Of a stretch of DNA of 38,331 bases, positions 3,409 to 29,978 are shown one piece after another. The DNA comes from a virus: IMG/VR virus record IMGVR_UViG_3300034682_000085, positions 1-38,331 of that record. One strand, given 5' to 3'. The notes below the pieces were generated by a model that saw only the letters and a program-made list of their open reading frames with translations, had not been told where the DNA came from and did no database searches. Positions within the stretch are counted from its first letter, which is position 1. Every line of letters starts with the position of its first letter. Made by a program: the position numbers and the translations under genes.

Positions 3409-4072
3409 GATTTTTCATCCTCTTGTTGATCTGGCGGGTGAGCACAGCGCGCAGCTGGATCACCTCGTTTAACTCGGGCGGCAGTTTGTGCCGCGTGTGC
3501 CGCTTCATGTGCTCGGCACGGCTGACGCATTCGACCTTATCGATCGTGATCTCCTCGAGCACGTTGGTGCGCATGCCGGGACGGAACACCACCATGTGCT
3601 TCGGCGGTACTGCGCCATTCGCCTCAATCCAGACCAGCTCGTGAACACTGCGCCACCGCTTATTGTTGGCGCCCTTCGCGTCGCTGATCTTCCGCTGCAG
3701 CGTGCCGTCCGGATCCAGTCGATATGCGCCGATCGGCGCCGTGTTGTATGGCATCTGCCCGGGCTTGAACTGCGTCTGCTCACCACCGGTGTGCACGCCC
3801 TTCGTGCCCTTGTTCCAACTACTATGGCCCTTCTGGAACCTGGTGGCACCACCGCGGATGCCATCGAGCCGGCCTGAATGCGGACCAGCTAGGAACTCGG
3901 CCGATTTGGCCAAGCCGAGCCTGCTCGCCTTAGCGTAGACCTGTTCGGTGCGGAGACCCAGAATGGTGGCAACGTCCTCGGTCTTGAAGCGCGGGTAGAA
4001 ACTGCGCAGCGTCTCGAGCCGCTCCTCCGTCCAGTCGGCTTTCGGCAGGTTTTTTTCCTTCGATACCGTCAT
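3386..4072 (-). CDS. HNH endonuclease with N-terminal HTH-like domain
   Basis: A 228-residue protein. Residues about 11-55 form a SANT/GcrA-like helical DNA-binding region (WTEERLETLRSFYPRF, then DVATILGLRTEQV). Residues about 140-192 hold an HNH_3-type nuclease: H144 in VHELVWIEANG, H159 in PPKHMVVF, then SRAEHMKRH. ATG 4072 overlaps the stop of the H-NS-like gene (ATGA). It may be a free-standing homing-type nuclease or a phage DNA-processing enzyme. The N of the usual GN motif is replaced (GMRTN), which leaves activity uncertain. Confidence 0.85.
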   Translation of the reverse strand: MTVSKEKNLPKADWTEERLETLRSFYPRFKTEDVATILGLRTEQVYAKASRLGLAKSAEFLAGPHSGRLDGIRGGATRFQKGHSSWNKGTKGVHTGGEQTQFKPGQMPYNTAPIGAYRLDPDGTLQRKISDAKGANNKRWRSVHELVWIEANGAVPPKHMVVFRPGMRTNVLEEITIDKVECVSRAEHMKRHTRHKLPPELNEVIQLRAVLTRQINKRMKNHEHEEHR

Positions 4073-4302
4073 GACTGCGCTCCTGGCAGCCGCAGCGCAT
4101 CGAGCGACTTTCCGCCCTGGACCCAATCAGTGATCCAGCGCGGTGGCTTGCCCCGGCCGGTCCACGCCATCCCAGGGTAATCGGGGTGACGGTACCGGAC
4201 TTCGGGCTGGCCGCCAGACTTCCCGATCGGGCGCTCGGCCGGCCGCACAGGCTGCACTGCCGGCGCCGGCGGCACATCGAACAGTCCCAGCTGCAGGCTC
4301 AT
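4069..4302 (-). CDS. Miniature H-NS-like DNA-binding protein
   Basis: A 77-residue protein whose C-terminal half (about 35-72) matches the H-NS C-terminal DNA-binding domain: VRYRHPDYPGMAWTGRGKPP, then RWITDWVQGGKSLDAL. The TGRGKPP loop corresponds to the AT-rich minor-groove hook. The N-terminal part is short and proline-rich and has no H-NS oligomerisation coiled coil, so it may bind DNA without forming filaments. ATG 4302 overlaps the previous stop (ATGA) and the gene's own stop overlaps the HNH start. It could counteract host H-NS silencing or help regulate phage genes, and this is inference. Confidence 0.8.
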   Translation of the reverse strand: MSLQLGLFDVPPAPAVQPVRPAERPIGKSGGQPEVRYRHPDYPGMAWTGRGKPPRWITDWVQGGKSLDALRLPGAQS

Positions 4303-4496
4303 CGCGACACCCACCGGCAAGCGGGCTGCTCGCAGTGCGCCACCACCATTTCACCGTCGACCAGGCGCATTGCCGACTTGCCGGCGCCACCCACCTCGAG
4401 CAGCGCCGCGGCCGCGACTTCGACGCGATCGCGCTGTTCGGCGGGGAAGCTCAGCACGTTGCGCCAGGCGCCGGAATCCTTGATCTGCAGCTTCAT
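4299..4496 (-). CDS. Small phage protein of unknown role
   Basis: A 65-residue protein (MKLQIKDSGAWRNVLSFPAE...) predicted to be a compact soluble alpha/beta fold. The start ATG 4496 overlaps the stop of the upstream gene by 4 bp, and its stop overlaps the start of the H-NS-like gene. It lies within a tightly coupled run of early genes. The family is not recognised. Confidence 0.7.
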   Translation of the reverse strand: MKLQIKDSGAWRNVLSFPAEQRDRVEVAAAALLEVGGAGKSAMRLVDGEMVVAHCEQPACRWVSR

Positions 4497-5648: not shown

Positions 5649-7436
5649 TCAAGCGGCCTTTGCCTGGGCGACGGCGGTGACGTGGCGAACGAGCGCCGCG
5701 CACATCGCCGGGAAGTCGGCTTCGTGGTACAGCACGGCTGCGCGGTCACGACCAGCTGCGGCGAATCCCAGGCGGGCCAGGCCATCGGCAGTGACCGCAA
5801 CCGGCGCGAGGCGCTCATTGATCTGGCCAAGGCGCAGGGTCGGCACGACGCCTGCGGCCGGCCGCACGGCTTCGATCGGCGTCACGGGCGCCGCCTCGAT
5901 GATCTGCATGGTCGGACTCAGCTGCGTGACCTGAGCTTTCGCCTCCTCGCGTGCGCGGGCCGCGGCGATGCTGGCGGCTTGCTCCTCGAGCTGGCGTTTC
6001 GTCTCGGCGGCAACGCGCGCGTGCTCGGCAGCAGCAGTTTCCTCGGCGACACGCGCGGCCTCGACCTGCTCCTGGCGCACCTTCTCGGCCGCCGCGGCTT
6101 CCGCCTTGACGCGTTCCTCTTCGGCGATCTGGGCGCGCAGGGCCTCGGCCTTCGCCGCTTCCGCCGCCTCGTGCTCGGCGATGCGCATCTTGACCAGCGA
6201 GGTCAAATCGTCGGGGGCCTTAAGCACGATCGACGGCGTGTCGGCGAACAGGAAGGCATGCGCGCCGGCCAGCTCGCGCAGCGTGCCCAGGTTGATCTGG
6301 ATCCGGTCGGCCACGGCGTTCGCCTCGATCTTGAAGCGAGCCAGCTCGGTGTCGACCGCGTCGCGCAGGCTGGTGACGGTCTTTTTCCCCTTCATGACCA
6401 GGGCGAAGTCGTAGGCGACCGCTGGCATGTACGGCTTGCCCAGGCGGGCGTTCAGTGCGGCGATGTGCGCCGCTGCCTTCTCCTTGCCGGCCTGCTGAAT
6501 CTCGACGCGGATCGTTTCCTTGCGCGCCTTGACGACCTTCTCCAGCATCAGGCGGGTTTTGCGGGCCAATTCCTTGTAGCTGGCGACCGTCTTGACCATG
6601 TCATCAACCGTCGAAATCTGGCCCAGGGCCGATGCTTCGGCGGCGCCCAGCGCGGTCTCGGCTCGCTCCATCACCTTGATCGCCTGCTCGGCGTCGGCGA
6701 AGGCCTGGTCGTCGCTCGGGTTGGTGTCGATCTCGGCCACGAACGCCTTGAGCTTCTCACCGAACAGCACCAGGTTGTGGTTCAGGGTGAGCTGGCCATC
6801 GACGCGGATCGACAGCGCCGGCAGGTCCTGCACAGCGGCGGCGACCGGCGGCGGTAGCGCTTCGACGTGCTGGTACGCGGCCAGGTCCTGCTCGAACTGC
6901 GCCCAGCCGGCGCGGATACGCTCCTGCCACGCCTGGTCGGGCTCGATCACAATGGATTCGAAGTTGTCGTGGGTGCCATCGGACACGACAAACAGCACCT
7001 TGGTGGCGCCGGTGACCATCATGACCTGCTGGCACTGCGGCATGTACTCGTCGGGCAGCTCGCCGGCGGCGACGGCGGCGCCCAGCCCCTGGTTCCACTG
7101 CTTGTGCTCGAACGCCACATCTTCCGCCATGGTCAGGCCGTCGCACGACGCCGACAGGCGACCGACCGAACAAGTCACTGGGTAGAGGTCGGTGCCGACC
7201 AGTTCCTCGGCGAGCGGCCGCGCCAGCGCTTCCACCTCGTGGCCGTAGTCGAGGATGTTCTTCTGCACCCAGTCGCTGAACTCCTGCGCCGTGCCGGTGG
7301 CCTTCATGTGCAGCAGCTCGTTGCGCTTGACCAGCGACGAGATGCCCAGCATTGCGGCCGCTTCGCTCGCGCCGAACTTCTCCAGCCTGTATTGCTGCCA
7401 CTCGGGCGAGCCCTGGACGAGATCGTGAATTTGCAT
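5649..7436 (-). CDS. YqaJ-type exonuclease with long coiled-coil extension
   Basis: A 595-residue recombination exonuclease that would resect double-strand ends for the RecT annealing partner just upstream. The nuclease core (about 1-180) has FGASEAAAMLG (with E25), DYGHEVEALA (E67), D99 in SASCDGL, E110 and K112 in the FEHKQW strand, and the bridging helix MPQCQQVMMVTGA. Residues about 230-410 form a DUF1351-like helical domain. Residues about 410-500 are a highly charged Ala/Glu/Lys coiled coil. Nucleases of this family are usually 200-330 residues, so the C-terminal fusion is notable. Confidence 0.9.
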   Translation of the reverse strand: MQIHDLVQGSPEWQQYRLEKFGASEAAAMLGISSLVKRNELLHMKATGTAQEFSDWVQKNILDYGHEVEALARPLAEELVGTDLYPVTCSVGRLSASCDGLTMAEDVAFEHKQWNQGLGAAVAAGELPDEYMPQCQQVMMVTGATKVLFVVSDGTHDNFESIVIEPDQAWQERIRAGWAQFEQDLAAYQHVEALPPPVAAAVQDLPALSIRVDGQLTLNHNLVLFGEKLKAFVAEIDTNPSDDQAFADAEQAIKVMERAETALGAAEASALGQISTVDDMVKTVASYKELARKTRLMLEKVVKARKETIRVEIQQAGKEKAAAHIAALNARLGKPYMPAVAYDFALVMKGKKTVTSLRDAVDTELARFKIEANAVADRIQINLGTLRELAGAHAFLFADTPSIVLKAPDDLTSLVKMRIAEHEAAEAAKAEALRAQIAEEERVKAEAAAAEKVRQEQVEAARVAEETAAAEHARVAAETKRQLEEQAASIAAARAREEAKAQVTQLSPTMQIIEAAPVTPIEAVRPAAGVVPTLRLGQINERLAPVAVTADGLARLGFAAAGRDRAAVLYHEADFPAMCAALVRHVTAVAQAKAA

Positions 7437-7446
7437 GTTGTTCTCC

Positions 7447-8223
7447 TTATTCGCCTTCGTGGGCCCACGAATCGATCGTGAGTTTCTGGTCTTCCGTGAG
7501 GACTGCTTTGGTGCTAAGCATCGCGATCAGCGCGTCCGGCGTCTTCTTCCCGGACAGCACCAGGTCGCGCCAGGCCGCCGCGTTCTCGGCGAACTTTTCG
7601 GCACTGCATTCGGGCAGCTCGGCCGGAGCGGCGCGGCCAACCTGGGCGACCGCTGGCGCCGTCGACGCCGGCGTGATGTCGTGCTCGACACGCTCGCCCT
7701 CTGGGTAGTCGCGCACTTCCTCGATCGACTTGATGCCCTTGAGCGCGTCGGCGAACAGGTCGCGCGCGGCGAAGGCGAAGGCGCGCATCTGGAGCATCCG
7801 CTTCGGTGCGGTCTGCCATGGGCCTGACTTGCCAGCCAGGCCGGCCTTCTTCGCGTCCTCGACGGTGAACGTGCTGACCACCGCCGAGCGGCCGCGCCGC
7901 TTGAGCGTCACCGTGCAATAGGTGTCCTGCTTGTCCTCATGCAGGTCTTCGAACTCGGGATGGCTGATCACCAGCGCGCGCATCGCGTCACCCCAGATGC
8001 TCGGGCGGCCGTTGATCACCGAGATACCCTGCAGCGACTGCATCGGCTTCAGGCCCAGCTCGGCGCCGGTCTGCACCGCCACCAGGACATTGCCCGGCTT
8101 GTTCACGTAGTCCTTCGGCACCATGTCCGATGAGGCGATGATCTTCGCGAATTCCATGGCCTCGGCCAGGTTGCGCGGGGTGAGGGAGAACGTCGGTTCG
8201 CCCTGGGTGGTCAGTTCGTTCAT
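7447..8223 (-). CDS. recT: RecT-family single-strand annealing protein
   Basis: A 258-residue recombinase that anneals complementary ssDNA and promotes strand exchange. The core (about 10-175) has NLAEAMEFAKIIASSDMVPK, GNVLVAVQTGAELGLKPMQS, INGRPSIWGDAM and the conserved RMLQMRAFAFAARDLFADAL helix of RecT. The C-terminal part (about 195-258) is a small helical domain likely to contact partner proteins. It lies 10 bp upstream of the YqaJ exonuclease gene, the standard two-gene recombination module. Confidence 0.95.
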   Translation of the reverse strand: MNELTTQGEPTFSLTPRNLAEAMEFAKIIASSDMVPKDYVNKPGNVLVAVQTGAELGLKPMQSLQGISVINGRPSIWGDAMRALVISHPEFEDLHEDKQDTYCTVTLKRRGRSAVVSTFTVEDAKKAGLAGKSGPWQTAPKRMLQMRAFAFAARDLFADALKGIKSIEEVRDYPEGERVEHDITPASTAPAVAQVGRAAPAELPECSAEKFAENAAAWRDLVLSGKKTPDALIAMLSTKAVLTEDQKLTIDSWAHEGE

Positions 8224-17235: not shown

Positions 17236-17619
17236 TCCCTTCCAGTTCTGCCGCACGCCGGTAGCGTAGAGCGCGACGAAACGCGCACGGGACCTTACTT
17301 GCCCGAGAAGTGCCGGAGCCCCCGCCCGGCCAGACTTCGAAGACGGCACCCACGACTACGTGAACATGACCTGGCACTGGCCAGCACAGCTGAGCGCACA
17401 CCGCGTTGCTCGGCGCCGGACGCTGTAACCGGCAACCACACGCAAGCCGATTCCCTGCCGAGTCGTTTTCCGTGTGGTGGACACCCGCCCACCTCTCCGT
17501 CCGCCGTGTGCGGCACTCGCGGGGTTGTCCACCCAACCCTGTCTCCACGGGATGCGGGTCCCAATCCTTCCCGCATCTCCTTCGCCCGGCCACGTGCCGG
17601 GCTTTTTTATTCCGCAACC
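17236..17619 (+). other. Hairpin-rich leader before terminase, no gene
   Basis: This 384-bp stretch has no reliable coding frame. It holds three stems: GGGTTG/CAACCC (17522-17539), GATGCGGG/CCCGCATC with an 11-nt loop (17551-17577), and the terminator at 17584-17608. Lying just before the small terminase gene, it is a candidate for the packaging initiation site or an RNA control element of late transcription. No direct sign of either is visible. Confidence 0.5.
17584..17608 (+). terminator. Terminator just upstream of terminase small subunit
   Basis: GCCCGGC, loop CACGT, GCCGGGC (17584-17602), followed by six T. It is the second strong terminator in the late leader, ending 11 bp before ATG 17620. 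Transcription from the late promoter must pass both for late genes to be expressed. Confidence 0.85.
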
Positions 17620-18048
17620 ATGACCGCGACCACCTACACGCCCGAGCTCGGCGCCAAGTTCTGCGCCGCGATGGCGTCGACCACCGACAGTATCGCGACC
17701 ATCTGCCGGCGCGCCGGCATGCCCAGCAAGGCGACGGTGTTTCGCTGGAAGTCTGAGCATCCGCTGTTCGCTGCAATGTACGACGCCGCCAAGAGCGCGC
17801 AGATCGACACGCAGTTCGATGAGATTGTCGAGATCGCGGACAACTGCAAGGCCGATAAAGACTCGGTGGCCAAGGCAAAGCTGCGCATCTACGCGCGCAT
17901 CGAGGCGGCCCAGCGCCTGAAGCCGAAGGAATACGGCCTGAAGGTCGCGCACGGCGGCACCGACGACCTGCCGCCTATGAAAACCGAGTCCCACGTGACC
18001 GTCACCGCCGAGGAGGCGTACAAGAGGATGCTCGATGGCGGTACCTGA
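17620..18048 (+). CDS. terS: Terminase small subunit
   Basis: A 142-residue protein. The N-terminal part (about 5-45) is a DNA-binding HTH: ATICRRAGMPSKATVFRWKS. A central helical region follows (VAKAKLRIYARIEAAQRLKP), with YGLKVAHGG, as in many phage TerS proteins with a downstream oligomerisation core. It would recognise the packaging site and load the large subunit, with which it overlaps by 14 bp. ATG 17620 lacks a good ribosome-binding site. Confidence 0.88.
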   Translation: MTATTYTPELGAKFCAAMASTTDSIATICRRAGMPSKATVFRWKSEHPLFAAMYDAAKSAQIDTQFDEIVEIADNCKADKDSVAKAKLRIYARIEAAQRLKPKEYGLKVAHGGTDDLPPMKTESHVTVTAEEAYKRMLDGGT

Positions 18049-19558
18049 CTGGTTCGACTTCAAGGCGCCCGACTACGAGCGGGTGTACCAGCTGCGCGCC
18101 GAACGCCTGCAGCGCATCCGCGCCGATCCCGGCCTGGTCCCAGCCCTGAAGGAGCACTACAAGGCCAACCCGATCGACTTCATCAACGACTGGGGCATGA
18201 CCTTCGATCCACGTAACGCCGAGATCGGGCTGCCCAGCATCATCCCCTTCATGCTGTTCCCGAAGCAGGCCGACTTCGTCACATGGGTACGCGAGCGCTG
18301 GCTGGGCCGCGAGGATGGCTTGGCCGAGAAATCCCGCGACATGGGTATCTCCTGGCTGTGCGTCGGCATCGCGGTCTGGATGTGGACGTTCTACCCGGGT
18401 GTGGTGATCGGCTTCGGTAGCCGCAAGGAGGAATACGTCGACAAGCTGGGCGACCCGAAGTCGCTCTTCTGGAAGGTGCGCCAGTTCATCAAGCTGCTGC
18501 CGAACGAGTTCCGGCCGAAGGGCTACGTCGAGAAGCAGCATGCGCCGCACATGCGGATCCTGAACCCCGAGACCGGCGCCGCCATCATCGGCGAGGCCGG
18601 CGACAACATCGGGCGCGGTAACCGCACCTCGATCTACTTCAAGGACGAGTCGGCCTTCTACGAGCGCCCGGATGCGATCGATGCAGCGCTGTCCCAGACC
18701 TCGAACTGCAAGATCGACGTCTCCACCGTCAACGGCAACGGCAACCCGTTCTACCGCAAGCGGCACGGCGGCAAAATCAAGGTATTCACGTTCCACTGGC
18801 GCCAGGACCCGCGCAAGGACGATGCCTGGTACCAGAAGCAGCGCGAGGCGCTCGATCCGGTCATCGTGGCGCAGGAAATCGACATCGACTACAACGCGTC
18901 GACCTCGGACGCCTGGATCGTTGGCGACCTGATCGCCGCCGCCCAGGGTAAGGGGCCAGCCGATGTCGAGCCGGTCGGCAGCTGGAACATCGGCGTCGAT
19001 GCGGCGCACTTCGGTGATGACGAAAGCGTGATCCACAAGCGCCGCGGACGCCTGAACCTGCCACAGGTCACGCGCCGCAGCCTCGATGGCCTGGGCCTGG
19101 CCGCCGTGGTCACCAGCGAATGCGACGACCTGGTTGCCGCCGGCGGTGAGATCGGCGTGATCGTGATCGAGCTGGACGGCCCGGGCGTGTCCTGCTTCGA
19201 CCAGCTCAAGGCCGGCAAGTACGCCAGCAAGGTTCAGGGCGTGCACACCGGCGCCCGGCTCTCCGATGGCAAGAACTACAACATCAAGGCGCGCATCTGG
19301 CGTGACGCGCGCGACTACCTGGTCGACGCGCCGGTGTCGATGCCGAACTGCGGCGAGCTGCGGTCGCAGCTGGCCTCGGTGAAGTACAAGTACAAGGATG
19401 GCTTGCTGCTCATGCAGTCGAAAAAGGAATACAAGGCGTTCTACGGCAAGTCGCCTGACCGCGCCGACGCCTTCGTGCTGACCTTCGCCCGCCCTGCCGT
19501 CGCACCCCGACCTCAACAGAAACGACCGGCCGCCGCACCTGGGGGCTGGATGGGATAA
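18035..19558 (+). CDS. terL: Terminase large subunit
   Basis: The 507-residue DNA-packaging motor. The N-terminal ATPase has a Walker A-like AEKSRDMGISW (97-107) and Walker B SIYFKDES with catalytic D204-E205. The C-terminal RNase H-like nuclease has D322 in GVDAAHFGDD and the final DRADAF (D475, D478). Length and motif order are typical. It cuts concatemers and pumps DNA into the procapsid via the portal encoded next. ATG 18035 lies in the end of terS. Confidence 0.95.
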   Translation: MAVPDWFDFKAPDYERVYQLRAERLQRIRADPGLVPALKEHYKANPIDFINDWGMTFDPRNAEIGLPSIIPFMLFPKQADFVTWVRERWLGREDGLAEKSRDMGISWLCVGIAVWMWTFYPGVVIGFGSRKEEYVDKLGDPKSLFWKVRQFIKLLPNEFRPKGYVEKQHAPHMRILNPETGAAIIGEAGDNIGRGNRTSIYFKDESAFYERPDAIDAALSQTSNCKIDVSTVNGNGNPFYRKRHGGKIKVFTFHWRQDPRKDDAWYQKQREALDPVIVAQEIDIDYNASTSDAWIVGDLIAAAQGKGPADVEPVGSWNIGVDAAHFGDDESVIHKRRGRLNLPQVTRRSLDGLGLAAVVTSECDDLVAAGGEIGVIVIELDGPGVSCFDQLKAGKYASKVQGVHTGARLSDGKNYNIKARIWRDARDYLVDAPVSMPNCGELRSQLASVKYKYKDGLLLMQSKKEYKAFYGKSPDRADAFVLTFARPAVAPRPQQKRPAAAPGGWMG

Positions 19559-19561
19559 CAC

Positions 19562-21700
19562 ATGGCTGACAAAGAAGACAACGACCTGCACTCGGAAGGG
19601 CTGCGGATCTACGGCGTTGCCGTCGAGCGCGAGAGCGAAAACCGTACCCGGTACGAGAATGACGTGAGGTTCGCGCGCCTGAGCGAGCAATGGCCGGATG
19701 CCGTGCGCAGGCAGCGTGAGCTCGACGGCCGCCCTTGCCTGACTATCAACAAGCTGCCGGCATTTATCCGCCAGGTGGTGAACGACGCGCGCCAGAACAC
19801 GCCACAAATCAAGTTTCACCCGGTCGGCGATGGCTCGGATCAGTGGACTGCCAAGGTGCTGGACGGCCTGGTGCGCAACATCGAGGTTCAGTCGAACGCG
19901 GACGTCGCCTACGACACGGCGATCGAGAACGCTGTGACCGGTGGCTTCGGCTTCTTCCGCATCACGACCGACTACACCAGCGACGACAGCTTCGACCAGG
20001 ATATTCGCATCGAGCGGATCCCGAATTCGCTGTCGGTGGTGCCGGATGCTCATTGCATGGACGCCGACTCGGCGAACTGGAACGACTGCTTCGTCACCGA
20101 GACCTATTCGCTGGACGCATTCAAGGCGAAGTGGCCGAAGGCCGACGTCTCCAGCTTCGAGGGTGATGGTCGCAGCCAATGCGCACCGAACTGGCTCGAT
20201 GGCGACGACATCATGGTTGCCGAATGGTGGACGCGCCGCGAGGTCGAGAAGACCCTGCTGAAGCTGTCGAACGGCGACGTCATGTACCAGGAGCAGTTCG
20301 ACGCGATCGCCGAGTTGCTCGATCTGGATGGCGTTACGGTAGCCGATCAGCGGCCGGTGCGCTCGATGAAGGTCACGCAGCACATCATGACCGGCGCCGG
20401 CATTATCGAGACGAACGACTGGGCCGGCAAGTACATTCCGGTTGTCCCAGTCTACGGCGACGAGGTCGTCATCGATGGCAAGCGGCACCTGAAGTCGATG
20501 ATCCACGACGCGACGGACGCCCAGCGCAGCTACAACTTCTGGCGCTCCACCGCGACCGAGGTTGCCTCGATGGCACCCAAGGCACCCTGGGTGGGGGCGA
20601 CTGGCTCGTTCGCCAGCGATCCGAATTGGCTGACCGCGAACACGGTCAACCACCCATACCTCGAGTACGACCCGGTCGACAACATGCCGCCGCCGCAGCG
20701 CATCCCGTTCGCCGGGCCTGATGCTGCGTCGATGCAGGAGGCGATGAACGCCTCCGACGACATGAAGTCGGTCATGGGTCTGTTCGACGCCAGCCTGGGC
20801 GCGCAGTCAAACGAAACCTCGGGCCGCGCGATCCTGGCGCGCCAGCGTGAGGGCGACGTCAGCACATTCAACTTCACCGACAACCAGAACCGCGCGATCC
20901 GCCACGCCGGCCGCATCCTGGCCGACCTGATCCCGAAGGTCTATTCGGTCGAACGCATCATCCGCGTGATCCACGAGGACGACACACCGGAGAACGTGAA
21001 GATCAACGGCCCGACCGACCCGATCCAGGCGCAGCAGCAGGCGATGCAGGGGCAGCAGCAAGGCCTGACGGATGAGCAGCGCGGAATCGTCCAGGTGTAT
21101 GACCTGACGACCGGTAAGTACGACGTAACGTGCGAGAGTGGCCCGAGCTACACCACGAAGCGCCAAGAGGCTGCCGAGCAGATGGTCAGCTTCATGCAGG
21201 CCGTACCAGCTTCTGGCCCGATCATCGGCCACCGCCTGGCGAAGGCTCTGGACTGGCCTGGTGCGATGGAGATCGCCGAAGACCTCAAGGCGATGTTGCC
21301 GCCGCAGCTGCAGGGCCAGAACCCGCAAGTGGCGCAGATGCAGCAGGCCCTGCAGCAGCTCCAGCAAGCGCTGGCGCAGGCCCAGGCCGCGCTGAACGAC
21401 AAGCAGCAGGACCGCGAGATTGACGTGGCGAAAGTGAAGATCGACGCCTACAAGGCCGAAAGCGATCGCATCAAGGTCGTCGGCGCCGGCATGGGCCCGG
21501 CCGAGGTGCAGGCGCTGGTCATGCAAACGCTGCAACAAGTGCTGTCGTCTCCGGACATCACACCTGGTGCGCCGACATCGCCCCCTATGCAGCCGGGCAT
21601 GCCGCAGCCCGACATGCAGCCCGGCACCGAGCCGGCCGCGCTCGAGCAACCGCAGCCCGCGGTGCCGCCGCCTGATATGGGCGGTGCAATCCCCTCCTGA
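19562..21700 (+). CDS. P22-type portal protein
   Basis: A 712-residue portal protein, close in size to P22 gp1 (725). The N-terminal region has RTRYENDVRFARLSEQWPD, RPCLTINKLPAFIRQVVND and NAVTGGFGFFRI, hallmarks of P22-type portals. The C-terminal part (about 590-712) is a Gln-rich coiled coil followed by a Pro/Gln/Met-rich tail, which corresponds to the barrel region. It forms the ring for DNA entry and for attachment of the short tail. Confidence 0.92.
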   Translation: MADKEDNDLHSEGLRIYGVAVERESENRTRYENDVRFARLSEQWPDAVRRQRELDGRPCLTINKLPAFIRQVVNDARQNTPQIKFHPVGDGSDQWTAKVLDGLVRNIEVQSNADVAYDTAIENAVTGGFGFFRITTDYTSDDSFDQDIRIERIPNSLSVVPDAHCMDADSANWNDCFVTETYSLDAFKAKWPKADVSSFEGDGRSQCAPNWLDGDDIMVAEWWTRREVEKTLLKLSNGDVMYQEQFDAIAELLDLDGVTVADQRPVRSMKVTQHIMTGAGIIETNDWAGKYIPVVPVYGDEVVIDGKRHLKSMIHDATDAQRSYNFWRSTATEVASMAPKAPWVGATGSFASDPNWLTANTVNHPYLEYDPVDNMPPPQRIPFAGPDAASMQEAMNASDDMKSVMGLFDASLGAQSNETSGRAILARQREGDVSTFNFTDNQNRAIRHAGRILADLIPKVYSVERIIRVIHEDDTPENVKINGPTDPIQAQQQAMQGQQQGLTDEQRGIVQVYDLTTGKYDVTCESGPSYTTKRQEAAEQMVSFMQAVPASGPIIGHRLAKALDWPGAMEIAEDLKAMLPPQLQGQNPQVAQMQQALQQLQQALAQAQAALNDKQQDREIDVAKVKIDAYKAESDRIKVVGAGMGPAEVQALVMQTLQQVLSSPDITPGAPTSPPMQPGMPQPDMQPGTEPAALEQPQPAVPPPDMGGAIPS

Positions 21701-21708
21701 AAGAGAGA

Positions 21709-22587
21709 ATGATGAAGAAAGCAATCTTGGGCCTGTGCCTGGCAGTCCTCTCCACAGCATCGTTCGCGGCTGCGAACAGTATCATCGTCACGCAGCGCAA
21801 CAGCACCGACACCGCCAATCAGGCGCGCACGCTGGACAATCCGGCAAGCGACGGCATCCTGATCTGGAGCCACGCCACGAAGCTGCCGGCGTACCTGACC
21901 GTAGGCGCTGGCCTGGTAGCGAGCAATGGCGTGCTCTCGGCGAACATCCCGGCCCAGGTCAACCCGGACTGGAATGCAACGAGCGGCGCCGGCCAGATCC
22001 TGAACAAGCCGGTTCTCAAGACTGTGGCGATGACCGGCGAGGCGGCCGACCTGACTGGCCTGGCGCCCGTAGCGATCACTGGCGCGTGGGCTGACCTGAT
22101 CGGCAAGCCCTCGCTATTCAGCGGCGCATATGCGGACCTGACCGGCAAACCAACGCTCGCTCCCGTGGCCAGCACTGGCGATTACAACGACCTCGTGAAC
22201 AAGCCGGCGCCGGTCGCGCCATACACGTTCGACTACGGCCTGCCGACCACCCGCACCGTCGCTGTGTCGACCGCATACCAGGCGATCAACGCCGCCAAGG
22301 CCGCGATCGTGACAGTCAGCCCGACCTGCTCGGCGTCGCTCAGCCTGGCCGGCGGCACCACATGCACGCTGCAGGCCAGAATCGGCACGGCACCGCTGAC
22401 CTGCTCGAGCGGCACGGTCGTGGCCACCTGGACGAACGGGAACACCGGCGCCCTCACCGTCGGCCTGTCGCTGAACCAGACCGTCGGCGCGCCTTACGGC
22501 ATCAACCTGCCGATCGGCGCCAGTTTCATCCTGTGTCCGGTCAGCGGCACCTTCACGATTTCCGCAGCCGAGCAATCCGTCGGCTGA
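21709..22587 (+). CDS. Secreted fibre-like protein between portal and scaffold
   Basis: A 292-residue protein with a convincing Sec signal peptide (MMKKAILGLCLAVLSTASFA, cut near residue 20). The middle carries fibre-type units: PDWNATSGAGQILNKPVL, ADLIGKPSLFSGAYADLTGK and STGDYNDLVNKPAP, a motif of phage tail and head fibres. The C-terminal domain (about 185-292) is beta-rich with several cysteines. AGAGAGA precedes ATGATG. A signal peptide is unexpected on a capsid-cluster protein. It might be a bacterial-surface protein or a head decoration with a fortuitous leader. Confidence 0.8.
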   Translation: MMKKAILGLCLAVLSTASFAAANSIIVTQRNSTDTANQARTLDNPASDGILIWSHATKLPAYLTVGAGLVASNGVLSANIPAQVNPDWNATSGAGQILNKPVLKTVAMTGEAADLTGLAPVAITGAWADLIGKPSLFSGAYADLTGKPTLAPVASTGDYNDLVNKPAPVAPYTFDYGLPTTRTVAVSTAYQAINAAKAAIVTVSPTCSASLSLAGGTTCTLQARIGTAPLTCSSGTVVATWTNGNTGALTVGLSLNQTVGAPYGINLPIGASFILCPVSGTFTISAAEQSVG

Positions 22588-22626
22588 TCAACCGCGGCTT
22601 CGGCCGCATCACTGGAGCTTTACCAC

Positions 22627-23502
22627 ATGGACGAACTGGAACAATCGGCAGAACTGCCGAATTCCGACGCCGCAGCCGCTGCAGCCGAGGAACAGCACGA
22701 GCAGCAAGCGGACAACCACGATTCCCAAGCCGACGCGGCCTCGCAAGAGCAAGCCGAAGAGGACGAGGAAATCGAGATCGGCGGCAAGAAGGTCGCCATG
22801 CCGAAGAGCATCGCCGCCGAGATCAAAGCCGGCACGATGCGCAACGCCGACTACACGCAGAAGACCCAAGCGGTCGCCGAGGAACGCCGCGCCGTCGAGG
22901 CAGAGCGCGCCCGGGTGCGTGAAGAGGCGCAGCAAAACCAGCAGTACATGAAGGAAGTCGCCCGCGTGCATGCGCTGGACGACCAACTGGAGCAGTTCAA
23001 GGCGCTCGACTGGAACAAACTCAGCGATGAGGACCCGGTCAGCGCCCAAAAGCTGCATTTCCAGTACCAGGCGCTGCAGCAGCAGCGTCAACAGGCCGCA
23101 GAGGCCGTCGCGCAGAAACAGCACGAACATGCACTGAATGAGCAGCAGGCAACTGCCAAGCAAATCCAGGAAGCGGAAGCGTATGTGCAGCGTGAAATCC
23201 CGGGCTGGAGCCCCGACCGTGCGAAGGCGCTCAACGAATTCGCCGGCTCGGTCGGCCTGACCGTCGACCAGAACCTGGCCAAGGTGCTCGTGCAGCATCC
23301 TGCCCTGTTCAAGGTCATCGACCAGGCCGAGAAGTTCGCCCAGCTCGTGAAGAAGCAGACCGCCAAGCCGCAAACCCCAGCCGCACCGCCGGCGCCGGTC
23401 ACCCGCGTGGGCGCTGCACGCGCAAGCGCGAAACCGGACCCGTCGAAGATGAGCGACGCCGACTGGTATGCGGCACGCAAGGACCAGCAGCGCAAGCGCT
23501 GA
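22627..23502 (+). CDS. Scaffolding protein
   Basis: A 291-residue, highly charged, Gln/Ala/Glu-rich helical protein. The acidic N-terminus (about 1-50), VAMPKSIAAEIKAGTMRNAD at about 57-76, a long coiled coil (about 78-190) and a basic C-terminus (WYAARKDQQRKR) form the usual pattern of podovirus scaffolds, in which the basic end contacts the coat protein. It lies just before the coat gene. It would direct procapsid assembly and be released before or during DNA packaging. Confidence 0.85.
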   Translation: MDELEQSAELPNSDAAAAAAEEQHEQQADNHDSQADAASQEQAEEDEEIEIGGKKVAMPKSIAAEIKAGTMRNADYTQKTQAVAEERRAVEAERARVREEAQQNQQYMKEVARVHALDDQLEQFKALDWNKLSDEDPVSAQKLHFQYQALQQQRQQAAEAVAQKQHEHALNEQQATAKQIQEAEAYVQREIPGWSPDRAKALNEFAGSVGLTVDQNLAKVLVQHPALFKVIDQAEKFAQLVKKQTAKPQTPAAPPAPVTRVGAARASAKPDPSKMSDADWYAARKDQQRKR

Positions 23503-23564: not shown

Positions 23565-24776
23565 ATGCCAAACGGTATCCTGACCCACCAAATGCTGGCC
23601 CGCGAAGCGGCCGCCATCCTGACCGAGGAAATGAACTTCCTCTCCAACATCAACCGCGGCCGCGAGGAAGAATTCAAGTCGCAGCCGAACGGCTACAAGA
23701 AAGGCGACTTCGTTGACATCGGCATCCCGCCAGTGCCGACCGTCTTCGACGGCACCAACTTCGCCGGCGGCGGCGCCGCTCCGGACCAGAACGAGCAGAA
23801 GGTGCGCCTGCAGCTGAACACGCAGAAGCACGTGCCGCTGACCTTCACCGCCAAGGAAAAGGCGTTGTCGATCAGCCAGTTCAAGGTACGCTTCCTCAAG
23901 CCGGCGATGAACTCGCTCGGCTCGGTGGTGCAGGCCGACCTGATCCAGCGCGGCGTGCTGGCGACCCCGAACGTGGTCGGTACCCCTGGCACGCTGCCGA
24001 ACACCTTCAAGACCTACGGCCAGGCGCGCAGCTCGATGGAACGCTTCCTGGCACCTGGTGGTGATCGCACCGTGCTGCTGTCGTCGGACGCAAGTAACGA
24101 GCTGGCCGACGCGATCAAGAATCAGCAGAACCCGACCGACACCGGCAACAAGGCGTTCAAGGAGGGCTACATCACCCGCGCGCAGAACTTCGACATGTAC
24201 GAAAACCAGTCGCTGCCGGTGTTCGCCAACGGCACCGCGACCGGCTTTACCGTCAACGGCGCCGGTCAAACCGGCTCGACGCTGAACATCGGCGGCATCA
24301 CCGCAGGCCAGACGATCCTCAAGGGTACCGTCTTCACCCTGCAGAACGTGTTCGCCGTGCACCCGGTGCTGGGCGTCTCGAACGGCAAGCTGCGCCAGTT
24401 CGTGGTGACCGCCGATTTCACCGCTGCCGGCACCACCGGCGCGATCGGCATCTACCCGCCCCTGGCAGCGTCGAGCGCATCGCAGGTCGGCACTGTGTCG
24501 GTCCTGCCATCCAACGGCGCTGCTGCCTCGATGGTCGGCGCGGCGAGCACCGGCTACCGTCAGGAGCTGGCGTTCCACAAGGACGCCTTCACCGCTGCAT
24601 TCGCACCGCTGCCAATCCTGGCGTCGTGCGAAGGCTACACCGCGACCATGGGCGGCTTCTCGGTGCGCGTCATGACCTTCGGTAACGGCCAGACCGACAC
24701 CGAGTCGACCCGTATCGACGTGCTGTACGGCTTCGCCGCCGTGCGCCCGGACCACGCGGTCCGCATCACCGAGTAA
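23565..24776 (+). CDS. Major capsid (coat) protein, P22 gp5-like
   Basis: A 403-residue protein with P22-type coat features: MPNGILTHQMLAREAAAILT at the N-terminus, FLSNINRGREEEFKSQ, GDFVDIGIPPVPTV, VPLTFTAKEKALSISQFKVR and a final GGFSVRVMTFGNGQTDTEST. An inserted beta-rich domain lies around 220-330. The fold is expected to be HK97-like. GGAGCTAG is its ribosome-binding site. It follows the scaffold gene and is followed by a weak terminator. Confidence 0.93.
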   Translation: MPNGILTHQMLAREAAAILTEEMNFLSNINRGREEEFKSQPNGYKKGDFVDIGIPPVPTVFDGTNFAGGGAAPDQNEQKVRLQLNTQKHVPLTFTAKEKALSISQFKVRFLKPAMNSLGSVVQADLIQRGVLATPNVVGTPGTLPNTFKTYGQARSSMERFLAPGGDRTVLLSSDASNELADAIKNQQNPTDTGNKAFKEGYITRAQNFDMYENQSLPVFANGTATGFTVNGAGQTGSTLNIGGITAGQTILKGTVFTLQNVFAVHPVLGVSNGKLRQFVVTADFTAAGTTGAIGIYPPLAASSASQVGTVSVLPSNGAAASMVGAASTGYRQELAFHKDAFTAAFAPLPILASCEGYTATMGGFSVRVMTFGNGQTDTESTRIDVLYGFAAVRPDHAVRITE

Positions 24777-25775: not shown

Positions 25776-27953
25776 ATGGCCCTCGAACCCGCTACCCACA
25801 TTTCCGAACTGGTGCCGACGAACCCGACCCCGGGCGACCCGAAGAGCCAGGGCGACGACCACATCCGCAACCTCAAGACCTCGCTACTGAACGACCTGGC
25901 CGGCTTCGAAGGCGCGATCATGTGCACTGGCGTCGACGGCGGCGCGGCGAACGCCTACACCGTCGCCCCGGCCCGGCCAATCATCGGCTACGGCAAGCGC
26001 ATGACCGTCGTTTTCGGCGTGACCGTCGCGAACACCGGCGCGTCCACCATCAAGGTCTCGGCGCTGGACGCCAAGCCGCTCAAGAGCGTGAACGGCCTTG
26101 CCCTGGTCCAGGGCGACCTGGTGCCGGGCGTCATCTATGCCGCCTGCTACACCGGCGACGAGTTCCGCCTGCTGTCGATCACGAAGAATGCGCTCGACCA
26201 GGCCGCGTTCAGCGCTGCCCTGCCTGGCCTGGACGACCCGGCGAACAACGGCAAGTACGTGCGCGTGCTGAATGGCTCCGTGGTCTACTCGAACCCGGGC
26301 ATTGCGACCGTGGCCACAACCGCGACCGACAACATCACGCTGACCACGTCCTTCCAGCTGGTGCCTCTGCAGATGGCCGCGCAAGGCAAGTCGGTGACGC
26401 TTCCGAGCGCGATCGGCCTGACCCTGGGCGGCCCGCAGTTCATCATCGACAACAGCAAGGGGATGTACCCGACCGGGATCCGCGACAGCGCTGGCACGCT
26501 GCTACAGGCGGTTGCCGCCGGTGGCGTGGCCTTCGTCTCGCTCAAGGAGAACGCGACGGCGGCCGGCGCCTGGCTGGTGACCGGCATGGGCATGGAGCCC
26601 GGCATGATCACCGGCGATGTGCTGTTCCCGGCCGGCTTCGGCACGACCATCTTCCCGGCCTTCGTCGCGATGGACGCGAACACCAGCGTCCACTTCGCTG
26701 CGCTGTCGAGCGGGTTCGCCGCCTTCGTGGTGGACAACCTGGGCAAGGTGGTGAGCACGCCGGTGACTGTGGACACGACCTCGGGCCAGACGCCGCTGAA
26801 CGCGTACAAGATCGACGCGACGCGCCTGATCGTGTTCACGAACAGCAAGGCGGTCGTGATCTCGCTGACCGGCTCGAGCCCGACCTATTCCCTGTCGGTC
26901 GGGGTGCTGGCAACCGTGCCGAATGCCGATACCGGCATTGGATCGCCACGCATGGCGCAGTTGTCCCCGACACTGTACGTCGTGATGAGCAATAGCACGA
27001 CCGTCATGTCGGTCTCTGTGAGTGGCACAACCGTAACTCCAGGCACGCAGCTCAACATGGGGTTGTCCGTATCCGGTGAGTACGCACTCTATCCGCTCAC
27101 GACAACTACGGCGATTTTGATCTATTCGGTCTCAAACGGGCCTGGGGCATTGATCGTAACGGTGAGCGGGGTGACGTGCACCGCCGGCACTCCGGTGCTG
27201 ATGGCAAATGCCGGCAGCCCAGCGCTCACCTCATCATGCCAGCTATCGCAAACGAAGTTCTTGCTGACCGTCGGCAACGGAACTACGCAGGCCGTGTTTG
27301 TGATGCCGATGACCGTTATAGGCGCCGCGATCACCTTCGGCGCGGCCACCGTGCTCGGGGCAGGTAATGCGGTGATTACGTACTCTAATATAGTCACGCG
27401 GTTCAACCCTCAACTATTCCCAACCGGTCTAAATTCGGCGCTGCTTACGTGGACGGACAGCGGCGCAACCCGGGCCGTGGTCGTGACGGAGGCTGGCAAT
27501 GTCCTGACTTTCGGTGCGCTGCTATCAGGCAGCTTCGCGGGTGGCTTTGTCGCCGCCCAGAATACAACCGACTTCATCGCGATCACGAACTCGGGCATCA
27601 CGGGCAACCAGCGATACAACATCGTCCCGCACAAGATCAGCGGCCCCAGCTTGACGCTTGGCACGGCCCAGCCAATCCCGGAGGTTTCGCCAACCGGTAC
27701 GGCGGGGGTGATCGGCACGACCCCAGCCGTGCGCCTGTCACAGGGCGACTACCTGGTCTTCGGCGCCGGCATCCAGGCCATCCCGGTCTACCGGTCGAAC
27801 GGCGACCTGGCGGTCAAGCGAGGCTCAATCGTGGTGCCGGGCCTGAGCGGGCCGACCATGCAGCCGATCCAGGCGGTGGCGCCGAACCGCGTCGTGGTGC
27901 TGGCCCCCTTTAACTCGCAGCTCCGGCTGCTCAACATCGAGGTAGCAGCATGA
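25776..27953 (+). CDS. Tail fibre/receptor-binding candidate
   Basis: A 725-residue protein. The N-terminal segment (HISELVPTNPTPGDPKSQGD, DHIRNLKTSLLNDL) is a common particle-attachment module of phage fibres. Residues about 55-150 are a beta-rich shaft, and the rest (about 280-725) is a string of Thr/Val/Ser-rich beta repeats suggesting a propeller or beta-helix. It is followed by a small gene that may be an assembly helper. The part from about 26980 to 27660 is noticeably less GC-rich, which fits an exchanged receptor-binding region. No enzymatic motif is seen. Confidence 0.75.
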   Translation: MALEPATHISELVPTNPTPGDPKSQGDDHIRNLKTSLLNDLAGFEGAIMCTGVDGGAANAYTVAPARPIIGYGKRMTVVFGVTVANTGASTIKVSALDAKPLKSVNGLALVQGDLVPGVIYAACYTGDEFRLLSITKNALDQAAFSAALPGLDDPANNGKYVRVLNGSVVYSNPGIATVATTATDNITLTTSFQLVPLQMAAQGKSVTLPSAIGLTLGGPQFIIDNSKGMYPTGIRDSAGTLLQAVAAGGVAFVSLKENATAAGAWLVTGMGMEPGMITGDVLFPAGFGTTIFPAFVAMDANTSVHFAALSSGFAAFVVDNLGKVVSTPVTVDTTSGQTPLNAYKIDATRLIVFTNSKAVVISLTGSSPTYSLSVGVLATVPNADTGIGSPRMAQLSPTLYVVMSNSTTVMSVSVSGTTVTPGTQLNMGLSVSGEYALYPLTTTTAILIYSVSNGPGALIVTVSGVTCTAGTPVLMANAGSPALTSSCQLSQTKFLLTVGNGTTQAVFVMPMTVIGAAITFGAATVLGAGNAVITYSNIVTRFNPQLFPTGLNSALLTWTDSGATRAVVVTEAGNVLTFGALLSGSFAGGFVAAQNTTDFIAITNSGITGNQRYNIVPHKISGPSLTLGTAQPIPEVSPTGTAGVIGTTPAVRLSQGDYLVFGAGIQAIPVYRSNGDLAVKRGSIVVPGLSGPTMQPIQAVAPNRVVVLAPFNSQLRLLNIEVAA

Positions 27954-28414
27954 CGCAACTGCTTGTTGTCGGCACGGCCGTCTTGGCGGTCGGCCCGTTC
28001 ACGATGACGCCGGACGAGATCCGCGCGCCCGACGTCATTTTCCCCGTGCACACGGTCGAAGGCTGGCAGATGGTGAGCGCCGAACTGCCGGCGGACTTCA
28101 CGCCGCTGGCCTACGAGTGGGTGAAAGGCGCACTGGCGGCGAAGGCGCCGCCGGCGCTGCCGATCGAGGTGCCGGCGCGCGTGCCGATGCTCAACGCGCA
28201 GCTGGTGCTGATCGAAATGGACTGGTGGGAGCCGCTCCAGGCCTACATCGGCGCCATGCCGGCCAAGGAGCAACTGCTGGCGCGCACCTACATGGCCCAA
28301 GCGCTGACCATGGCGCGGGACCACGAGCTGGTGCTGGCCATCCCGGCCGCGCTCGGCAAGACGGATGCCGAGGTCGACCAGCTGTTCATCATGGCGGGGG
28401 CGCTCGATGTCTAA
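27950..28414 (+). CDS. Possible fibre assembly helper
   Basis: A 154-residue soluble protein. The N-terminal half is a beta-rich module (FTMTPDEIRAPDVIFPVHTV), and the C-terminal half is helical (NAQLVLIEMDWWEPLQAYIG...LARTYMAQALTMARDHELV). ATG 27950 overlaps the end of the fibre gene (ATGA). Small proteins coupled to fibre genes often act as fibre chaperones. I do not recognise the family. Confidence 0.65.
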   Translation: MTQLLVVGTAVLAVGPFTMTPDEIRAPDVIFPVHTVEGWQMVSAELPADFTPLAYEWVKGALAAKAPPALPIEVPARVPMLNAQLVLIEMDWWEPLQAYIGAMPAKEQLLARTYMAQALTMARDHELVLAIPAALGKTDAEVDQLFIMAGALDV

Positions 28415-29978
28415 GGTCACCATCGAAAGCGCCGGCTCGGTGGGCGTGATCAAGGACCTGACGCAGCAGAAGCTGCCGCCGGCCGCCTGGACGGACGCGC
28501 AGAACGTCCGCTTCCTGGACGGCGCGGCGCGCCAGTTCTTCGGCCACGGCCCAGCCTACGGCGCGCCGACGATCACGCCCTACCATGTGGCGCAGCTGAA
28601 CATCAGCGGCAACAGCTACTGGCTCTACGCCGGCGCCGCCAAGATCTACGCCACGGCCGTGGTCAACGGCGCCGCGATGCACACGAACCTGACGCGCCAG
28701 ACGGCCGGGGCCGACGTCGATTACACCGGCAAGCAGAATGCCTGGACCAGCACCATGCTGTCGGGTATCCCGATCCTGAATCCCGGGAACGAAGTCGACC
28801 CGCCGCAGCGCTGGAATCTGGACATCGCCGGGCGTTTCCAAGTGCTGGACAACTGGCCGGCCAACACCTTCTGCAAGTCGCTCCGGGCATACAAGAACTA
28901 CCTGGTCGCGCTGAACATCACGCGCGGCGGCGTCAACCTGGGCTACATGGTGAAGTGGTCGTCGCCGGCCGACCCAGGCGGCGTACCGATCACCTGGGAT
29001 GCGAGCGATCCGACACAGGACGCAGGCGAGACCGATCTGGCCGAGGGTGGCGATCGCATCGTGGACGGCCTGCAGCTGCGCGACAGCTTCATGATCTACA
29101 AGGAGCAGTCGGTCTGGCGCATGGACTTCACCAGCGGCGGGTACGTATTCAGCTTCAGCAAGGTGCTGGGCACCGCCGGCGCCATGAACCGCAACTGCAT
29201 CGTGGAACTCGACGGTGTGCACTTCGTGCTGGGCAACTCTGACGTTTATGTGCACGACGGCCAGTCGGCTGTATCGGTGCTGGACAAGGTGGCCCGCCGC
29301 GCCCTGTTCCAGGATATGGACACCGCCTACACCGATCGCGCGTTCGTGTTCAAGAACCCGTTCATGAACGAGGTCTTCGTCTGCTATGTGAGCGTGGGCG
29401 GCACGGTGCCGAACAAGGCGCTGGTCTGGAACTACGTCGACAAGACGGTCAGCTACCGCGACATCCCAAACCTGAACCATGCAGCGTTCGGGCCGGTGAA
29501 CAGCACGCTGAGCGACAGCTGGGCATCGGACGGCGATCCGTGGGAATCCGATATCTCGTCCTGGAATGGCCCGGGCTTCGTCCCGAACCAGGCGCGGGTG
29601 CTGATGGCGTCCAACGACACGCAGCTGCTGCTACTCGACGCCTCGGCCACCTTCAACGGAACGCTGCCCATGGCCTACCTCGAGCGGCGGGGGCTGGCAT
29701 TCGGCGACGCCACCATCACGAAGCGCATCACCGGCGTGCGTCTGCGCGTGACCGGCAACCAGGGCGAGACCGTGATCGTGAAGGTGGGCGGCCACCAGAC
29801 CGACCCGTTCGCGGATCCGGAATGGGAAGCCGAAATGGAGCACGTCATCGGCGAGACGATCGCCTGCGACTGCTTCGTGGATTCCCGCTATCCGGCGCTG
29901 CGCATCGAGTCCGGCACGGCCGCGCAATGGCTGCTGGAGAGCTACGACTATGACATTCAACCTGGGAGCCGCTGGTGA
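28407..29978 (+). CDS. Packaged-DNA stabilisation/tail hub protein (gp10-like)
   Basis: A 523-residue beta-rich protein beginning KDLTQQKLPPAAWTDAQNVR, with NRNCIVELDGVHFVLGNSDV and YVHDGQSAVSVLDKV, typical of podovirus hub or P22 gp10-like proteins that close the portal after packaging. The length is near P22 gp10 (472). ATG 28407 starts within the end of the previous gene. Its place between fibre and ejection genes supports this. Confidence 0.7.
   Translation: MSKVTIESAGSVGVIKDLTQQKLPPAAWTDAQNVRFLDGAARQFFGHGPAYGAPTITPYHVAQLNISGNSYWLYAGAAKIYATAVVNGAAMHTNLTRQTAGADVDYTGKQNAWTSTMLSGIPILNPGNEVDPPQRWNLDIAGRFQVLDNWPANTFCKSLRAYKNYLVALNITRGGVNLGYMVKWSSPADPGGVPITWDASDPTQDAGETDLAEGGDRIVDGLQLRDSFMIYKEQSVWRMDFTSGGYVFSFSKVLGTAGAMNRNCIVELDGVHFVLGNSDVYVHDGQSAVSVLDKVARRALFQDMDTAYTDRAFVFKNPFMNEVFVCYVSVGGTVPNKALVWNYVDKTVSYRDIPNLNHAAFGPVNSTLSDSWASDGDPWESDISSWNGPGFVPNQARVLMASNDTQLLLLDASATFNGTLPMAYLERRGLAFGDATITKRITGVRLRVTGNQGETVIVKVGGHQTDPFADPEWEAEMEHVIGETIACDCFVDSRYPALRIESGTAAQWLLESYDYDIQPGSRW

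Follow-up and report, generated by a model that had tools for sequence, protein, structure and literature searches.

A putative exported and accessory fibre protein encoded among the head genes of a temperate phage

The window analysed here, a 38.3 kb IMG/VR virus record, derives from a phage that is temperate and podovirus-like and whose head genes are of P22 type. Between portal and scaffold it encodes a 292-residue fibre-like protein that, in our preferred reading, is a Sec-exported, accessory phage fibre outside the virion. We consider the chances of this reading to be even. Its elements, as far as sequence can reveal them, are a conserved leader predicted to be cleavable, a conserved N-terminal module (N-module), stalks and tips that can be exchanged, cysteines in pairs and a gene site that is empty in close relatives. 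Related proteins are encoded by about 50 IMG/VR contigs and by the Pseudomonas phages AF (AF_025), AH02 (gp17) and Orisa01 (gp41). Viral contigs were scanned with the whole protein, the N-module and the tips, and named phages were searched by tblastn. The resulting family set comprises 53 leader-bearing records, some near-identical to one another, and in all of them the leader is followed by a module with the QRN motif or a divergent form of it.

Genomic setting and history of the fibre gene

The fibre gene lies between portal and scaffold, as already proposed by the initial annotation and confirmed by profile matches of both flanking genes; it starts 9 bases past the portal stop and ends 39 bases short of the scaffold gene. 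The relevant features of the window are as follows.

5649-8223, minus strand: RecE-like exonuclease and RecT-like annealing protein, adjacent
17299-18048: TerS, P22-type head gene
18035-19558: TerL, P22-type head gene
19562-21700, plus strand: portal gene (phrog_156, E 2.9e-142), left flank of the accessory cassette
21709-22587, plus strand: fibre-like ORF, 292 aa
22588-22626, plus strand: intergenic stretch, found directly after the portal stop in the fibre-less contigs L115 and L127
22627-23502, plus strand: scaffold gene (phrog_3927, E 2e-30), right flank of the accessory cassette
23565-24776: major head protein
28365-29978: virion structural protein, packaged-DNA-stabilisation type

A CI-like repressor is encoded, like the RecE/RecT pair, on the strand opposite to the head genes. 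At the extreme left end, a tRNA-Leu (UAA) at 13-99 is a plausible prophage attachment site. The region 25776-28414 likely holds the true tail fibre, a protein of 725 aa whose tip is unrelated; the 154-aa product of the next gene may assist its assembly as a partner.

Is the fibre gene an integral part of the head cluster? It has the strand and position of the late head genes and is preceded by a ribosome-binding-like sequence, AGAGAG, at about 21702-21707. In contigs L115 and L127, whose portals are 84% and 81% identical to that of the window, the portal-scaffold junction is empty and the scaffold gene lies 36 bases past the portal stop. DNA similarity (83%) resumes at window position 22587, the last base of the fibre stop codon, which aligns with the final position of the portal's stop codon in L115 (6142) and in L127. 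The gene is likewise missing from L118 (portal 70%). Because close relatives lack it at the same junction, the fibre gene is accessory, situated in the head cluster yet dispensable there. Such absence, seen in all three contigs, is one mark of a moron or accessory cassette; as to a promoter and terminator of its own, another such mark, a scan for the sigma-70 consensus found no promoter-like site before the gene, and no terminator-like site was found on its strand.

The history of the fibre is discordant with that of portal and major head protein. Contig L034 resembles the window in portal (87%) and major head protein (89%), with a fibre that is only about 50% identical and has another stalk; in L029, in turn, identity is 77% for the fibre, 69% for the portal and 36% for the major head protein. 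The head-protein values of both contigs (89% and 36%), set against those of the portals, suggest that the major head protein has itself been exchanged. In other carriers the fibre gene has lysis genes or tailspikes as neighbours. In AF and related phages it directly follows a small phrog_35311-type gene (L025 8561-8941; L036 7678-8007; L042 7678-8001; L048 7594-8001), whose product could be a partner or chaperone of the exported fibre. The portal-scaffold junction (window 21700-22627) seems to be an insertion hotspot; unrelated, leaderless ORFs occupy it in L120 (4878-6110), L121 (3764-4462) and L134 (2774-3034).

Leader, cysteines and export

The fibre protein can be divided into four parts.

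21709-21768, plus strand: Sec/SPI signal peptide MMKKAILGLCLAVLSTASFA, residues 1-20, cleavage after A20, possibly A22
21769-21948, plus strand: conserved N-module of the mature protein, residues 21-80, defined by the family alignment
21949-22221, plus strand: variable stalk with ADLxGKP-type repeats, residues 81-171; collagen-like GXY in relatives
22222-22584, plus strand: C-terminal tip of type T1, about 120 residues (172-292), predicted C1q/TNF-like jelly roll with four invariant cysteines

The N-terminus reads MMKKAILGLCLAVLSTASFA followed by AANS, with the n-h-c layout and AxA-type site of a Sec-exported SPI substrate, and this layout is conserved. The leader call rests on a crude SPI rule combined with conservation: 51 of the 53 members satisfy the rule, far above the chance level set by 7 of 314 other ORFs. 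The two leaders that fail, MDARYLKALLLCLVVASPLALA and MKKLIMVLALLSPMCFA, are narrow misses and look like plausible SPI signals by eye. Scans with the tip alone provide a fair test, as they do not select for a leader. With the T1 tip, a leader was found in 15/15 contigs (the L007/L090 contig counted once); with the T2 tip, in 18/21. The three exceptions (L098, L099 and L104) lack the N-module too and share the tip only. In L104 (about 3935-4357) and L099 (about 3956-4357) the short leaderless proteins contain little beyond the T2 tip. A start-codon artefact as the origin of the leader is ruled out by the ribosome-binding-like sequence together with leader conservation.

Cysteines provide indirect support for export, because they come in pairs. 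Among 50 distinct tips, the mature part has no cysteine in 19, an even number in 27 and an odd number in 4 (46/50 even or zero); as the rows are related by descent, we attach no probability to this parity. Pairs have been gained separately in the tips (T1 207/219/232/276; AF 244/307; L037 198/239; L105 286/298; L112 255/291), and different branches show N-module pairs at 50/65, 75/84 and 89/100. The pattern is as expected for proteins that would form disulfides in an oxidising compartment. Among T2 tips the correlation between cysteines and leader is not clean, many leader-bearing tips being cysteine-free.

Taken with the tip-only finds, the conserved leader and paired cysteines make export of the window fibre well supported at the sequence level. 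The Sec signal and the export of a fibre-like protein, both suggested by the initial annotation, are thereby upheld. Signal-less homologues, which it had named as counter-evidence, do not occur among N-module homologues; the signal is missing from the tip-only proteins of L098, L099 and L104 and from a true Erwinia tail fibre that has their tip. These findings also bear on the reading of the protein as a conventional fibre of head or neck, with a hydrophobic N-terminus that does not serve in export. Its location between portal and scaffold and its stalk repeats, common in tail fibres, would suit such a role, and against it stand the leader in 53/53 members and in 15/15 contigs of the T1-tip search, the pairing of cysteines and the empty site in relatives. 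We regard this reading as highly improbable.

Could the exported protein instead remain on the cell? The Sec leader would also suit a protein that an infected cell or a lysogen displays on its surface, as an adhesin or for superinfection exclusion. Lipobox-like LLAAC occurs in the leaders of L030, L032, L035, L081 and L084, which keep the conserved AxA|G site, and a lipoprotein subset among these members is possible. A collagen-stalk member also matches the bacterial adhesins Lcl and SclA/SclB, in the collagen part and far below cut-offs. The lipobox is, however, not conserved, whereas the SPI site is; the window leader has none (it reads LGLC) and so does not resemble an Llp-like lipoprotein. 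Nor is there a recognised outer-membrane translocator among the window proteins scanned, and a gene placed with the late head genes, with no sigma-70-like promoter site ahead of it, argues further against display. We therefore judge display unlikely; as offered by the initial annotation for the infected cell, it is unproven, no translocator being recognised nearby. Periplasmic storage with release at lysis would be the simpler course.

Stalks, tips and carriers

The N-module has the consensus [GA][PA]NxI..TQRNxxDTxNxxRT ... VGxGLxxSxGVL and is all-beta in the predicted model, with a pLDDT of about 70-77. The stalk of the window protein contains the repeats ADLTGLA (113), ADLIGKPS (128), ADLTGKPT (142) and NDLVNKPA (160); the ADLxGKPxL repeats noted initially are thus present, in degenerate form. 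Synechococcus and Pseudomonas phages frequently have this stalk type in their tail fibres. The cysteines noted initially in the C-terminal domain are the four of the tip, 207, 219, 232 and 276 (codons 22327, 22363, 22402 and 22534), invariant across T1 tips. Under one type of N-module we count 32 members with ADLxGKP and 21 with collagen-like stalks; the rule used is simple, and some calls may be wrong. The family has at least three tip types, with stalk and tip freely swapped: AF_025 and the L041 protein, for example, have near-identical N-modules and different tips. T1 and T2 tips are related (hhalign E 3.4e-6). The protein thus has the make-up of a fibre stalk with a receptor-binding tip, as seen from its stalk repeats and from the homology of T1/T2 tips.

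Pfam and NCBIfam yielded zero matches for the window protein, including any known virion-attachment N-terminal domain; its N-module stands behind a leader and occurs across unrelated virions. Sequence profiles of the PDB were likewise uninformative. The profile phrog_31472 matches residues 2 to 132, that is leader and N-module (E 1e-16). AF_025 matches this profile, which has no described function, across its whole length; the window tip is of another type. Two alignment-based scans of GTDB genome contigs returned no confirmed relative, a weak negative because they relied on one or two short peptide patterns. Matches of AF_025 to Streptomyces and Microbacterium minor-tail proteins (checked for Caron) appear to be stalk-only and were rejected.

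Because AlphaFold modelled the complete protein poorly (mean pLDDT 50), the fold search was made with a model of the tip only (26 sequences, pLDDT 75, pTM 0.70, all-beta). Its best PDB matches, at E 1.9e-3 to 2e-2, are phage baseplate proteins and TNF-/C1q-like jelly rolls, among them the TNF-like lectins Bc2L-C and PLTL; TM against TNF/C1q structures is about 0.4-0.5. Among viral models, it matches a tailspike-type protein of phiEa2809 (E 1.7e-4). With moderate confidence, the model suggests a C1q/TNF-like jelly-roll fold.

The carriers include P22-like and BPP-1/T7-like podoviruses as well as a myovirus. AF encodes an endoprotease, tail-tubular proteins and internal virion proteins, AH02 is annotated as P22-like, and Orisa01 is the myovirus; by tblastn, AF and the window have no virion proteins in common except for a weak TerL match. 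As the virions of the carriers are unrelated, a dedicated virion-docking role is unlikely, as is a common docking site on these virions. The label 'phage structural protein' in the initial annotation fits neither these unrelated virions nor the empty junction of close relatives. The same evidence weighs on the idea that the periplasmic fibre decorates virions after lysis, docking via its N-module as an extra adhesin. Tail fibres do show this pattern, in which the N-module is conserved while stalk and tip vary, and a true tail fibre, that of Erwinia phage Bue1 with its PF18668 N-terminus, likewise has a T2 tip at its end. But the N-module occurs in all three kinds of carrier with no obvious docking protein in common, and close relatives that have the same portal do without the gene. 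Decoration of virions is, in our estimate, improbable.

Proposed role and relation to known systems

On the preferred reading of an exported, non-virion fibre, the protein would be made late, together with the head genes, cross the inner membrane, and trimerise and form disulfides in the periplasm. It would leave the cell at lysis alongside, not on, the virions. Its C1q/TNF-like tip may then bind glycans or proteins on cell surfaces, debris or matrix. Progeny phages could thereby survive or spread better, for instance if receptors on debris and on neighbouring infected cells were masked. Counting against this reading, the fibre has no second match within its own genome and hence does not simply duplicate the receptor-binding protein of the phage; a copy of its own fibre tip was rejected on the same ground.

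Slightly short of even, in our view, are the chances of the broader proposal, a class of 'free fibres': exported tail-fibre architectures of tailed phages, many of them disulfide-stabilised and all with interchangeable stalks and tips, that would occur across virion types and, once released, work as lectins directed at cells, debris or matrix. Annotation treats fibre-like phage genes as virion parts. If the exported family is real, phages would also release fibres as separate agents, which may steer adsorption, debris binding and competition among phages, and which would offer small ready-made glycan binders.

How does this family relate to known systems? Tail fibres such as those of Erwinia phages Bue1 and phiEa2809 (PF18668) and the collagen proteins of EHEC prophages (PMC3368898) share stalk repeats, tip homology or fold with the window protein. 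Unlike it, they have virion-attachment N-termini; Bue1 has no leader, and none is mentioned for the EHEC proteins (PMC3368898). Gp047 of Campylobacter phage is RBP-like, absent from the virion and hypothesised to act on cells after lysis (PMC4690887). It is in this role that we liken it to the window fibre, as an RBP-like phage protein with a proposed action outside the virion; the passages that describe it mention no signal peptide. T5 Llp is a superinfection-exclusion lipoprotein that protects against useless adsorption to fragments of lysed cells (PMC9586334), and is like the window fibre a phage-encoded exported protein. Llp differs in being a small, early-made lipoprotein that jams FhuA, and is no fibre. 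We found no description of the fibre family in the open-access papers searched. Each component is known from one system or another; what appears to be new is that a single exported family combines them and spans several virion types.
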